Below, piece by piece: positions 11,005 through 13,113 of a stretch of 16,597 nucleotides of DNA. How positions within the stretch are numbered: the stretch's first letter is position 1; every line of letters starts with the position of its first letter. The stretch spans positions 1 through 16,597 of the forward strand of contig DAOVTF010000004.1 of assembly GCA_030633225.1 (NCBI GenBank). The letters are read 5' to 3'. Origin of the DNA: Flavobacteriaceae bacterium (GTDB lineage: Bacteria > Bacteroidota > Bacteroidia > Flavobacteriales > Flavobacteriaceae). Both the position numbers and the translations under genes were made by a program. The notes under the pieces are model-generated. The model searched no databases. It had not been told where the DNA came from and worked only from the letters and a program-made list of their open reading frames with translations.

Positions 11005-11874
11005 ATGTCAGAAAAATCTGTTATCATACCAAGAACCAAAAAGCCTGATTGGTTAAGAGTAAAGCTTCCTATTGGGAAAAAATATACAGAACTTAGAGGT
11101 ATTGTTGATAAATATAAACTCAACACTATTTGCACAAGTGGAAGTTGTCCAAATATGGGAGAATGCTGGGGAGAAGGTACTGCTACGTTTATGATTCTTG
11201 GAAATATTTGCACTCGTTCTTGCGGATTTTGTGGTGTAAAAACAGGAAAACCTGAAAATGTAGAATGGGATGAACCTGAAAAAATTGCTAGGTCTATTTA
11301 CTTAATGAAAATAAAGCATGCCGTAATTACATCAGTAGATAGAGATGATTTAAAAGATGGAGGGTCTATAATTTGGGCTGAAACTGTTCAGGCCATTAGA
11401 AGAGCAAATCCAGATACAACTCTCGAGACTTTAATACCCGATTTTAGGGGAATCAAAACAAATATTAACAGGTTGATTGAAGTAAAACCTGAAATAATAT
11501 CTCACAACCTAGAAACTGTAAGAAGACTGACTCGTGAAGTAAGAATTCAAGCCAAATATGACAGAAGTTTAGAAGTTTTAAAATATATTAAAGATAGTGG
11601 ACAAGAAAGAACCAAGTCTGGAATTATGCTCGGCTTAGGAGAGACTGAAGATGAAGTTATTCAAACATTACAAGATATAAGAAATGCAAAAGTTGATATT
11701 GTTACTATTGGTCAATATTTACAGCCAAGCAAAAAGCATTTACCCGTAAGTGATTTTATTACACCGAATCAATTTAAAAAATATGAAAGAATTGGAAAAG
11801 AATTGGGCTTCAAACATGTTGAAAGTGGTGCTCTTGTTAGATCTTCTTATCGTGCACATAAGCACCTTTTATAA
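11005..11874 (+). CDS. lipA: Lipoyl synthase
   Basis: A radical SAM enzyme that inserts two sulfurs into octanoyl groups carried on lipoyl domains of 2-oxoacid dehydrogenases and the glycine cleavage H protein. The 289-residue protein has both iron-sulfur sites: the auxiliary cluster motif CTSGSCPNMGEC (C43, C48, C54), whose fourth ligand is a serine of the C-terminal RSSY (279-282), and the SAM cluster CTRSCGFC (C69, C73, C76). VITSVDRDDLKDGG and IMLGLGETEDEV are standard family segments. No lipB is adjacent. The 3' side is a 426-bp gap with a sigma-54-like promoter and two hairpin elements, so the gene has no immediate downstream partner. Confidence 0.97.
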   Translation: MSEKSVIIPRTKKPDWLRVKLPIGKKYTELRGIVDKYKLNTICTSGSCPNMGECWGEGTATFMILGNICTRSCGFCGVKTGKPENVEWDEPEKIARSIYLMKIKHAVITSVDRDDLKDGGSIIWAETVQAIRRANPDTTLETLIPDFRGIKTNINRLIEVKPEIISHNLETVRRLTREVRIQAKYDRSLEVLKYIKDSGQERTKSGIMLGLGETEDEVIQTLQDIRNAKVDIVTIGQYLQPSKKHLPVSDFITPNQFKKYERIGKELGFKHVESGALVRSSYRAHKHLL

Positions 11875-11925
11875 AAAACAATAATCCTTATTCAATTAAC
11901 AGTAATTTAACAATAAAACTATTTT
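11875..11925. other. Short AT-rich gap between lipA and the sigma-54 site
   Basis: I see no ORF, hairpin or clear activator site here. If the sigma-54 promoter is real, its enhancer-binding protein should bind within about 100-150 bp upstream, which would put the site here or in the 3' end of lipA. No inverted repeat stands out. Confidence 0.4.
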
Positions 11926-11942
11926 TTGGCACGTATTTTGCA
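11926..11942 (+). promoter_or_regulatory. Sigma-54 (RpoN) type -24/-12 promoter
   Basis: TTGGCACG (11926-11933), four bases, then TTGCA (11938-11942) matches the RpoN consensus YTGGCACG-N4-TTGCW at every defined base. The GG (11928-11929) and GC (11940-11941) pairs are separated by exactly 10 bases, as required. The start of transcription would be near 11953, which is where the repeated element begins. Assuming about 30% GC and independent bases, a match this good is expected by chance in only about one in a thousand windows of this size. No protein-coding gene follows on this strand. Confidence 0.7.
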
Positions 11943-11952
11943 ATATTACTTA

Positions 11953-12040
11953 ACGAAGCAAAGTTCCCCAAATTTTGTTTTCATTATGATTAATTTTGAG
12001 TTAGTAAGCTAAAGCACCTCTTTTAAAGAGGTGCTTTTTA
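11953..12040 (+). ncRNA. Putative sigma-54-dependent small RNA, copy 1
   Basis: The proposed transcript is about 90 nt, from the start predicted by the -24/-12 site to the T-tract of an intrinsic terminator. A second copy at 12186-12274 aligns with it over about 91 bases with one single-base indel and roughly eight to ten differences. Shared blocks include TTCCC, AATTTTG, GATTAATTTTGAGT and AGTAAGCTAAAGCA, followed by the terminator stem. The conserved part before the hairpin appears mostly unstructured, which is where a base-pairing seed would lie. The only ORF inside (eight codons from 11986) loses its ATG in copy 2, so coding is not supported. It could alternatively be only the lipA terminator, but that would not explain conservation of some 55 bases upstream of the stem. 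No named RNA family is claimed. Confidence 0.5.
12011..12040 (+). terminator. Intrinsic terminator of copy 1
   Basis: AAAGCACCTCTTT (12011-12023) pairs perfectly with AAAGAGGTGCTTT (12025-12037), with a strong GCACCTC/GAGGTGC core and an effective AT loop. Five T follow, and then more AT-rich sequence. On the opposite strand the tail is only three T, so the plus strand is the favoured direction. Confidence 0.85.
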
Positions 12041-12045
12041 ATTTT

Positions 12046-12185
12046 AATCCAAAAAAATTATAATATTAAGAATTAATGAAAAGAATACTCATGATTTAAT
12101 AACATTATGAATGTTTTAACATGATATTATCATTTTATTTAACAATTAACTTGTAATATTGTATTATATATCTTATATTAGTGTC
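12046..12185. other. AT-rich spacer between the two repeat copies, with two short palindromes
   Basis: No ORF of note. Two perfect short inverted repeats sit close together: AACATT/AATGTT (12101-12115, 3-base centre) and ATGATA/TATCAT (12121-12133, 1-base centre). They could be operators for copy 2, but in sequence this AT-rich such palindromes also arise by chance. TAATATTG at 12154-12161 is one base off the TAnnTTTG -7 consensus and is the only promoter-like element before copy 2; the sigma-54 consensus is absent at the corresponding place. Confidence 0.35.
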
Positions 12186-12274
12186 ACGAATCAAAATTCC
12201 CACTAATTTTGTATTCATTAAGATTAATTTTGAGTAAGTAAGCTAAAGCATCTCTTTTAAAGAGGTGCTTTTTA
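12186..12274 (+). ncRNA. Putative small RNA, copy 2 of the tandem pair
   Basis: This is a direct repeat of copy 1, starting 233 bp further on, with about 90% identity by hand alignment; the longest identical run is the 27 bases covering most of the hairpin and tail. The sigma-54 -24/-12 bases upstream of copy 1 are replaced by unrelated AT-rich sequence here, so if copy 2 is transcribed it must use another promoter, perhaps the near-match at 12154-12161, or be a fading duplicate. The one change in the stem (C to T at 12251) keeps pairing in plus-strand RNA as a U-G wobble. Its right end lies only about 25 bp from the pnp stop on the other strand. Confidence 0.4.
12245..12273 (+). terminator. 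Intrinsic terminator of copy 2 (possibly also ends pnp transcription)
   Basis: AAAGCATCTCTTT (12245-12257) pairs with AAAGAGGTGCTTT (12259-12271), with one U-G wobble on the plus strand, followed by five T. On the minus strand, downstream of the pnp stop at 12301, the same stem has an A-C mismatch and a tail of only three T, so it would be a weaker terminator for the pnp operon. Confidence 0.7.
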
Positions 12275-12300
12275 ATTTAGAGTTAAGGTATTTTATTCGT

Positions 12301-13113
12301 TTACCACTTTGAAATAAATTCTTGAACCAATTTACCAATTTTTTTTTCTGAAGCTTTTGCTGCTACTTGAACCGCTTCATGAGAAACTTCTTCAACATGC
12401 CCTTCAATTCCCAGATCGGTAATTACCGATAATCCAAAACACTGCATTTCCATATGTTTTGCCACAATAACTTCAGGAACAGTACTCATTCCCACTGCAT
12501 CAGCTCCCATCAAGCTAACCATTCTATATTCAGCCGGAGTTTCAAAGGTTGGCCCTTGTAAAGCTAAATATATTCCTTTTTGAATTCTTATATTGTTTTC
12601 TTTTGCAATACCTTCCATAGTAGAAACCATTTTCAAATTGTAAGGTTCGTGCATATCAACAAATCTTGGACCAAATCTATCATCATTCAATCCTCTTAAA
12701 GGATGTTCAGGCATCATATTAATATGATCGGTTATAATCATTATATCTCCAACTTCGAAATTAGGATTTACACCTCCAGATGCATTCGATACAATTAAAT
12801 TATCAATTCCAAGGTATTTCATAACGCGAATAGGAAAAGTTAATTCATCCATTTCCCAACCTTCATAAAAATGAAATCTTCCTTGCATTGCAACAACATT
12901 TTTATCGCCTAATTTACCATAGATCAATGTGCCAGAATGCCCAGGTACTGTTGAAACAGGGAAATTTGGAATATCTCTATAAGCAATGCTTTTCTCAATA
13001 TCTATCCAATCCACTAAACTTCCCAAGCCGGTACCAAGTACAATTCCAAAATCTGGATTTGAAATGCCTTTTTCTTTTAAAAATTTAACTGTTTCATGTA
13101 TTTTGTTGTACAT
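12301..13113 (-). CDS. punA: Purine-nucleoside phosphorylase (trimeric, PNP-I family)
   Basis: Splits purine nucleosides with phosphate into base and ribose 1-phosphate, in purine salvage. The 270-residue protein has the trimeric-PNP order: phosphate-site GTGLGSL (27-33), PGHSGTL, GRFHFYEGW (R79, H81), SNASGGVNP, GPTFETPAEYR (E191, base recognition), MSTVPE (M209) and SHEAV (H245, matching human H257). At the position of human N243, the residue that with E201 selects 6-oxopurines, it has Asp (D233 in VITDLG). It is the last gene of the operon; its ATG lies inside lpxK with a 20-bp overlap, so translation is likely coupled. S-methyl-5'-thioadenosine phosphorylase is a related alternative, but GPTFETPAEYR speaks for PNP. 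Confidence 0.93.
   Translation of the reverse strand: MYNKIHETVKFLKEKGISNPDFGIVLGTGLGSLVDWIDIEKSIAYRDIPNFPVSTVPGHSGTLIYGKLGDKNVVAMQGRFHFYEGWEMDELTFPIRVMKYLGIDNLIVSNASGGVNPNFEVGDIMIITDHINMMPEHPLRGLNDDRFGPRFVDMHEPYNLKMVSTMEGIAKENNIRIQKGIYLALQGPTFETPAEYRMVSLMGADAVGMSTVPEVIVAKHMEMQCFGLSVITDLGIEGHVEEVSHEAVQVAAKASEKKIGKLVQEFISKW

Follow-up and report, generated by a model that had tools for sequence, protein, structure and literature searches.

The closest described counterparts of the locus reported here are MicA and RybB of Escherichia coli, sigma-E-dependent small RNAs (sRNAs) that repress outer-membrane protein mRNAs, and the Qrr RNAs of Vibrio, which are under sigma-54 and LuxO. The CiaR csRNAs lie behind a direct-repeat operator. 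To our knowledge, the regulatory RNAs of marine Bacteroidota have been little studied. In Streptococcus pneumoniae, the CiaR-controlled csRNAs comprise several similar sRNAs (PMC4507080). Mapped -24/-12 promoters of Flavobacterium psychrophilum serve groESL, dnaK, lon, clpB, htpG, Skp(OmpH), and a gliding operon, and Table 2A of the same study lists Rfp36, a putative regulatory RNA with a mapped sigma-54 promoter (PMC9723704); by that table entry, a sigma-54-driven RNA has precedent in flavobacteria.

The DNA analyzed here, referred to as the window, is a whole stretch of 16,597 nucleotides, contig C289 of a Flavobacteriaceae genome (G000) whose assembly of 1.97 Mb is 67% complete. In the gap between a lipA-like gene and the punA-like gene that converges on it lie two direct repeats, each with a terminator hairpin at its end, that are predicted to encode two paralogous RNAs of a family centered on the genus Lutimonas. 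Like MicA and RybB, these would be short RNAs made under an alternative sigma factor with predicted pairing at the start of an ompA-type mRNA, and either kind of RNA would reduce outer-membrane protein synthesis. Unlike MicA and RybB, they belong to another phylum, involve sigma-54 rather than sigma-E, include paralogues with a second, housekeeping promoter, have no Rfam match at the gathering threshold, and would form a duplex of ∼25 nt over the AUG. We propose that the Lutimonas RNA works like MicA and RybB but is unrelated to them. The CiaR csRNAs likewise are several similar sRNAs behind a direct-repeat operator, but they are not sigma-54-controlled, as the present RNAs are predicted to be, and we know of no sequence relation between the two groups.

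The locus and its two predicted RNAs

The features of the locus are as follows, in window coordinates.

11005..11874, + strand: flanking lipA-like gene, an ORF that is likewise the neighbor in other genomes (cluster c2)
11896..11912, + strand: TTAACA-N5-TTAACA, an 11-bp direct repeat in a conserved upstream block, putative regulator site at about -57/-46
11926..11942, + strand: sigma-54 (-24/-12) promoter TTGGCACGTATTTTGCA of copy 1, read directly from the sequence
11953..12043, + strand: predicted transcript of sRNA copy 1 (match to covariance model R1 at 11955-12043, 95.6 bits; MFE z -4.4)
11955..11981, + strand: 5′ hairpin with C-rich loop, copy 1 (fold; helix 1 covariation)
11978..12008, + strand: proposed target-pairing segment UUUUCAUUAUGAUUAAUUUUGAGUUAGUAAG, copy 1 (alignment A1), including the core at 11989-12008 and complementary to OmpH-like and OmpA-family translation starts
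12011..12042, + strand: intrinsic terminator, copy 1 (inverted repeat and T run; fold; helix 2)
12151..12181, + strand: housekeeping-type promoter, copy 2 (TTG at 12151-12153, TATATTAG at 12174-12181)
12187..12277, + strand: predicted transcript of sRNA copy 2 (model R1 match at 12188-12277, 85.9 bits; MFE z -3.3)
12223..12242, + strand: core of copy 2, with one mismatch
12245..12276, + strand: intrinsic terminator, copy 2 (inverted repeat and T run; fold)
12301..13113, - strand: flanking, convergent punA-like gene, an ORF that is likewise the neighbor in other genomes (cluster c0)

Judged by sequence, the flanking genes would encode lipoyl synthase (11005..11874) and purine nucleoside phosphorylase (12301..13113). 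The repeat unit is 85 nt long and 91% identical between copies (11960-12044 against 12194-12278). An earlier note on this DNA had described a second copy in the same orientation 233 bp on; the copy and its orientation stand, and the spacing is corrected to 234. Its description of a ∼90-bp element ending in a terminator hairpin agrees with the inverted repeat, the T run, the fold, and a covarying second helix, and its reading of the pair as paralogous tandem sRNAs is matched by the scores of both copies against model R1. Both RNAs also fold better than shuffled sequences, by the z values listed above. The 20-nt core, ATTAATTTTGAGTTAGTAAG, has no mismatch in copy 1 and one in copy 2, and only 0.01 matches with up to three mismatches are expected by chance in dinucleotide shuffles of the window. 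As the same note had said, neither copy holds an ORF, here meaning none of at least 50 amino acids.

The note had recognized no named family, and a scan of the window with the 4227 families of Rfam 15 likewise gave no match at gathering. Four matches appeared up to an E-value of 5; the sole one overlapping the sRNA region was to GcvB (21.3 bits, against a gathering threshold of 42), and neither the Qrr model nor those of MicA and RybB were among the four. Literature was searched on the letters of the core, on sigma-54/RpoN sRNAs of Bacteroidetes or Flavobacterium, on Lutimonas, and on OmpA-related Bacteroidota sRNAs, and no description of the family was found among the matches listed; the family looks undescribed.

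Spread, structure, and conservation of the family

The ∼90-nt element of which the window pair are two members is, on comparative grounds, almost certainly a family of sRNAs, its members being predicted transcripts. A blastn search of the region against 60 relatives gave E-values below 1e-13 for 20 of 22 genus genomes, counting the window's own, only ∼0.001 in G008 and G019, and at best 6e-7 over 40 bases outside the genus. The core itself, with up to two mismatches, is present in all 22 genus genomes, against zero or one match per genome for the reversed pattern. With at most one mismatch it occurs in two of 246 genomes sampled across the order, namely the window's genome and G075, where the isolated match is taken as chance. 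A scan of one genome per species over 84,980 species returned 39 core stretches, 38 of them in records of Flavobacteriaceae, Flavobacteriales, or Bacteroidia, including the named species Lutimonas halocynthiae and L. saemankumensis; the remaining one, in Oceanobacillus, is likewise taken as chance.

A covariance model, R1, built from 62 copies (alignment A1), was run over 199 genomes of the family Flavobacteriaceae and found two strong copies in G404, a genome of another genus, where sigma-54 sites on both copies and a lipA-punA location for one were recognized by eye. G404 was the only genome with strong matches among the 197 sampled from other genera, and 25 further genomes gave only weak matches (E-values of 3e-4 to 0.01), which were excluded from the family. 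Rfp36, compared by its description only, is likewise a putative regulatory RNA behind a sigma-54 promoter in the Flavobacteriaceae. Full-length copies are recorded in 20 of the 22 genus genomes (two of them named Lutimonas species), in G404, and on one further contig (L173). Of 77 distinct core matches, eight were dropped because they looked like chance matches or the ends of genes, and four because they are class 2 (below), leaving 65 of full-length type, counts that rest on partly incomplete assemblies.

Class-2 RNAs occur in G003, G008, G019, and G002, share the core and nothing else with the full-length family, and are the only form in G008 and G019. Five loci are assigned to this class: L030 (G019:C40), L031 (G008:C156), L047 (G003:C226), L086 (G003:C157), and L160 (G002:C268). 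In these RNAs the core apparently lies near the 5′ end with an unrelated terminator right after it, and the 5′ hairpin is missing; L030, L031, and L047 have in common an upstream stretch resembling TTGGC..TTTATTAAGAAT..TTAAC.

Two helices covary across the full-length family, with 94.5% of cells paired and two-sided changes in 18 of 23 pairs and 206 cells, a level reached by none of 500 shuffles; slid controls were 46-62% paired, in a comparison favored by the fitting of alignment A2 to the model structure. Helix 1, the 5′ hairpin, has two-sided changes in seven of 11 pairs and 93.3% of cells paired over 64 distinct copies, and helix 2, the terminator, has them in 11 of 12 pairs. The 20-nt core between the helices is nearly invariant in alignment A1. 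In line with what the note had proposed to look for, the same element lies behind sigma-54 sites at other loci, and conservation extends beyond the terminator stem: the stem letters vary and covary, and the upstream bases and the -24/-12 site are kept among homologues.

This pattern bears on the possibility that the repeats are simply duplicated transcription terminators serving the lipA-like and punA-like genes, which converge here, as their position between those genes and the hairpins at their ends might suggest. The bases ahead of the terminator and those of the promoter are the most strongly conserved, and dispersed copies with promoters of their own lie at unrelated loci, which makes that explanation very improbable. 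The neighboring genes share no common function (lipA-like/punA-like, S49 peptidase/DHFR, gldBC/HPPK-dNK, and dnaG/clpX). In G006:C198, G016:C42, G021:C218, and G005:C29, copies are spread over adjacent gaps of a single gene cluster, often in opposite orientations; the cluster comprises gldBC, HPPK/dNK, S49 peptidase, DHFR, and dnaG/clpX.

Copies of the sRNA have a dedicated promoter and an intrinsic terminator and no conserved ORF. Copy 1 can be read as an eight-codon ATG...TAA frame, MINFELVS, and in 58 of 63 copies the core has an ATG, GTG, or TTG ahead of it, which would favor a micro-peptide gene. Across those 63 copies, however, the first six codons past the start show no synonymous change at all, and the rare changes alter a residue or create a stop; five copies have lost the start, among them the window's copy 2, where a stop also comes early. 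The frame is therefore not kept as a coding one, and the micro-peptide reading, scarcely credible on these counts, was rejected.

Two promoter types and candidate regulators

Copy 1 is preceded by TTGGCACG-N4 and then a TTTGCA region at 11926-11942, with the GG at 11928-11929 and the GC at 11940-11941, from which transcription is predicted to start at ∼11953, judging by the -12 element. The full RpoN consensus reported earlier can be read directly from the sequence, the predicted start at the left edge of the element agrees with it, and copy 1 is very probably under sigma-54 control. The earlier reading of the locus as RpoN-dependent is supported by computation, with the refinement that only copy 1 has the sigma-54 promoter; copy 2 has no -24/-12 site and has instead a TTG-N20-TAnnTT element; in all likelihood, to judge from this element and its counterparts, copy 2 is driven by a housekeeping promoter.

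Both types recur throughout the family. A sigma-54 site is present on 46 of the 65 full-length-type copies, one of them (on contig L173) from outside the 22 genus genomes, and in each of the 46 the GG lies 59-64 nt ahead of the core; the site pattern is matched by 0.6% of mononucleotide shuffles. The form TTG-N19-21-TAnnTT, at a steady distance, was found in 16 of 17 readable non-sigma-54 copies, against one of the 46 sigma-54 copies and 2% of shuffles; the 17 exclude L160, which is class-2-like, and the N-masked L004:1300. Each of the 20 genomes that hold full-length copies has between one and five sigma-54 copies. In 14 of them there is exactly one non-sigma-54 copy, which lies toward punA wherever the locus can be seen. 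No non-sigma-54 copy was seen in G002, G003, G007, and G018, and two each were seen in G015 and G017, one of those in G017 being N-masked.

Upstream information in 39 non-redundant sigma-54 copies is clear only at the -24/-12 box and at two TTAACA blocks, which lie near -57 and -46 with a spacing of 11 bp; positions -155 to -65 hold little information, with no distal site conserved. The repeat TAACA-N5/6-TAACA is exact in 26 of 44 readable sigma-54 copies, has at most one mismatch per half in 17, and is missing in one. A strict pattern of repeat plus sigma-54 site occurs at 22 places in 14 of the 22 genus genomes, against none for the reversed pattern, and a coordinate check placed sRNA copies at 21 of the 22. 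The remaining place, L110 (G000:C89), adjoins a DHFR-like gene and has the TTAACA repeat, the sigma-54 site, and a terminator without an sRNA body, and may be a relic, a very short RNA, or an assembly fault. The strict promoter pattern TTGGYACN4TTTGC gave three matches in three genomes, against one reversed-pattern match; two are sRNA copies and the third is at G004:C1:9025.

Sigma-54 promoters and several paralogous copies are also the mark of Qrr-type quorum-sensing RNAs under a LuxO-like activator. The core of the present RNAs is different, as are the predicted targets and the phylum, the Rfam scan of the window gave no Qrr match, and the upstream region lacks a conserved distal activator site, so that membership in this type has a very small chance; the comparison with Qrr made in the earlier note is only an analogy.

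As that note had proposed to check, the window's genome encodes rpoN, in a search that covered G000, and one or more clear enhancer-binding proteins of the AAA+ type. A PF00158 profile search of five genomes returned clear enhancer-binding proteins together with weaker AAA+ matches, one of them ClpX-like, and five proteins were scanned against Pfam. In that scan L120 matched a receiver and an AAA+ domain and nothing of a DNA-binding kind, its chain stopping just past the lid of the AAA+ domain; the matches of L127 are identical and its tail is longer; and L125, L130, and L128 carry a Fis-type domain. L122 and L123 resemble L120, the one of the three that was scanned, in length and ends.

Candidate targets, proposed role, and core-like elements elsewhere

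The core, together with ∼11 bases upstream of it, shows complementarity over the AUG to gene starts for an OmpH/Skp-like lipoprotein (PF03938), where the complementarity was first seen by hit position in G004 and G011, and for an OmpA-family protein (PF00691). Duplex energies, which ignore intramolecular structure, were calculated for starts defined as the first ATG of ORFs of at least 110 codons (120 in one run), by which some leaders are misplaced. Among 510 starts sampled from 640 kb of G011, the OmpH-like start ranks first (-24.7 kcal/mol) and the OmpA-family start second (-22.0 kcal/mol). The values in G004 are -28.5 and -20.3, the OmpA start being first of 78 sampled starts and the OmpH-like start fetched separately; those in G013 are -18.6 and -22.0, second and first of 16 starts from loci fetched for these genes. 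OmpA orthologues were examined in these three genomes, synteny having placed those of G013 and G004 and failed for G017. In the OmpA duplexes of G011 and G013, which span the AUG, 26 of 27 positions are paired when wobbles are counted, and in the OmpH-like duplexes of all three genomes an invariant G still faces a mismatch. Zero or one of 300 dinucleotide-shuffled sRNAs paired as well with each of the six leaders; over all G011 starts, the best score was reached by three of 300 shuffled sRNAs and the second best by four, and none of the 300 matched the mean energy over the 510 starts.

Pairing of the OmpH-like start with each genome's own sRNAs was assessed in 20 genus genomes and G404, with G003 (start unplaced) and G020 (no close orthologue) dropped; in G008 and G019 the "own" sRNA is a class-2 RNA only. 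It was equaled by at most 0.5% of sRNA shuffles in 13 of the 21 genomes and was weak (more than 1% of shuffles) in eight: G005, G006, G007, G008, G010, G018, G019, and G021. When the leader was shuffled instead, G000 (-15.3), G001, and G016, all among the 13, rose above 1%. Ranked against the other starts on hand, the OmpH-like start is first in seven of the 21 genomes and third of 18 in G000, this ranking having used an sRNA segment slightly different from that of the 510-start scan. In the same ranking the punA-like start came second in G004.

The punA-like start was put to the same comparison in the 19 genus genomes with the locus on hand, and zero or one of 200 shuffles did as well in four: G004 (-21.1), G013 (-19.4), G011 (-17.1), and G014 (-14.7). 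It is unremarkable in most of the others (-6.7 in G000), and in G004 the OmpA start, at -19.5 with the genome's own sRNAs, falls behind it. Part of the effect is therefore likeness to translation starts generally. The punA-like gene may be one more target in these genomes, or the segment may complement their translation starts in general; on both views, specific envelope targets have a weaker case than the ranks would imply. The punA-like loci L089, L091, L093, and L090 adjoin the sRNA locus; complementarity at the start is seen in G011, G004, G013, and G014 and not in the window.

Signal-peptide-like genes pair better than others, by -0.82 kcal/mol against +0.33 (sd 0.30) in shuffles, a difference reached by none of 200. 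Signal peptides are not clearly enriched among the top 25 starts (eight against 6.6 expected), and neither are long complementary sites (108/110/148 against 104/95/129, and 36/40/47 against 29/23/43, sRNA copies included).

By comparison across genomes, the family, its two promoter types, its structure, and its conservation are well supported. Beyond that, we infer transcription, an activator with its signal, pairing in the cell, and repression. In the mechanism that we propose, copy 1 would be transcribed by sigma-54 RNA polymerase under an activator, some factor would bind its proximal TTAACA repeat, and copy 2, transcribed with a housekeeping sigma factor, would be a basal source of the same RNA. 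The RNA would consist of a 5′ hairpin with a C-rich loop, a nearly invariant unpaired segment, and an intrinsic terminator; the segment would form a pairing of ∼25 nt with envelope mRNAs at their leader and AUG, the best partners being those of the OmpA-family protein and the OmpH/Skp-like lipoprotein, and the duplex over the AUG would block their translation. Envelope mRNAs as the main targets, a choice made from predicted pairing, is a tentative reading that stands somewhat short of an even chance; given pairing over the AUG, repression would be the highly probable effect. Taken whole, a pair of trans-acting sRNAs, one under sigma-54 and one a housekeeping basal copy, that represses translation of envelope mRNAs comes to only just under even.

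An appreciable possibility, at distinctly less than even, is that the sRNA family and its promoters are real and that the core binds a protein (a chaperone, nuclease, or translation factor) or other targets, the OmpA/OmpH match being a likeness to the complement of ordinary flavobacterial starts. The class-2 RNAs of G003, G008, G019, and G002, which retain the core alone before a terminator, are in keeping with this, and imperfect pairing with mRNAs would not call for so constant a core; the weak OmpH-like pairing in eight of 21 genomes, the good punA-like pairing in four of 19, the shifted mean over all starts, and the lack of clear enrichment of complements point the same way. Against it, the two best of 510 starts both belong to envelope proteins and recur in G004 and G013, the 0.5% level is passed by the OmpH-like start in 13 of 21 genomes as compared with four of 19 for the punA-like start, and signal-peptide starts are favored beyond shuffles.

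Repression of envelope mRNAs remains the preferred reading, and a wider form of it, which we hold to be unlikely, can be framed for Lutimonas: a multi-copy sRNA of a sigma-54 stress circuit would act as a broad translational brake on exported proteins, as an antisense image of leader-AUGAAA signal-peptide starts, with OmpA-family and OmpH/Skp-like proteins hit hardest and usually one housekeeping and one to five sigma-54 genes. If true, the brake would be an independently evolved sigma-54 counterpart of the sigma-E/MicA/RybB envelope response. A sigma-54-driven sRNA family with named candidate targets makes a specific circuit in marine Bacteroidota testable, offers a natural case of sibling sRNAs with one core and two promoter types, and raises the question of whether flavobacterial sigma-54 couples chaperone induction to RNA-mediated shut-down of outer-membrane proteins, as sigma-E does in enterobacteria.

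A further candidate start belongs to a membrane protein gene beside an sRNA copy, with duplex energies of -24.2 in G006 and -23.9 in G016 and a weaker -12.7 in G404. This gene, of 360 amino acids, adjoins an sRNA copy at L041, L043, and L191 (G016, G006, and G404, respectively), and the L041 protein has GyrI-like and polyketide-cyclase-like domains.

The weak R1 matches in other genera resembled TTTTGAGTTAGT ahead of terminators. A general 3′-end module was considered and dropped: exact 12-mers numbered 37 against 20 in controls over 15 genomes of the same family outside the genus, and GAGTTAG lay ahead of one of 72 and none of 48 terminators in 400 kb each of two genomes. At L184, L188, L224, and L237, from other genera of the family, a recurring element precedes the terminator CCGGTGGGAGC(A/G)CCGG; its TTTGAGTTAGT-like motif is doubled in three of them and single in L237, and it sits downstream of genes whose products end in LRKVFALQD, LKRVFSLQD, or LKKVFSLQD. 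This element is possibly another undescribed RNA.
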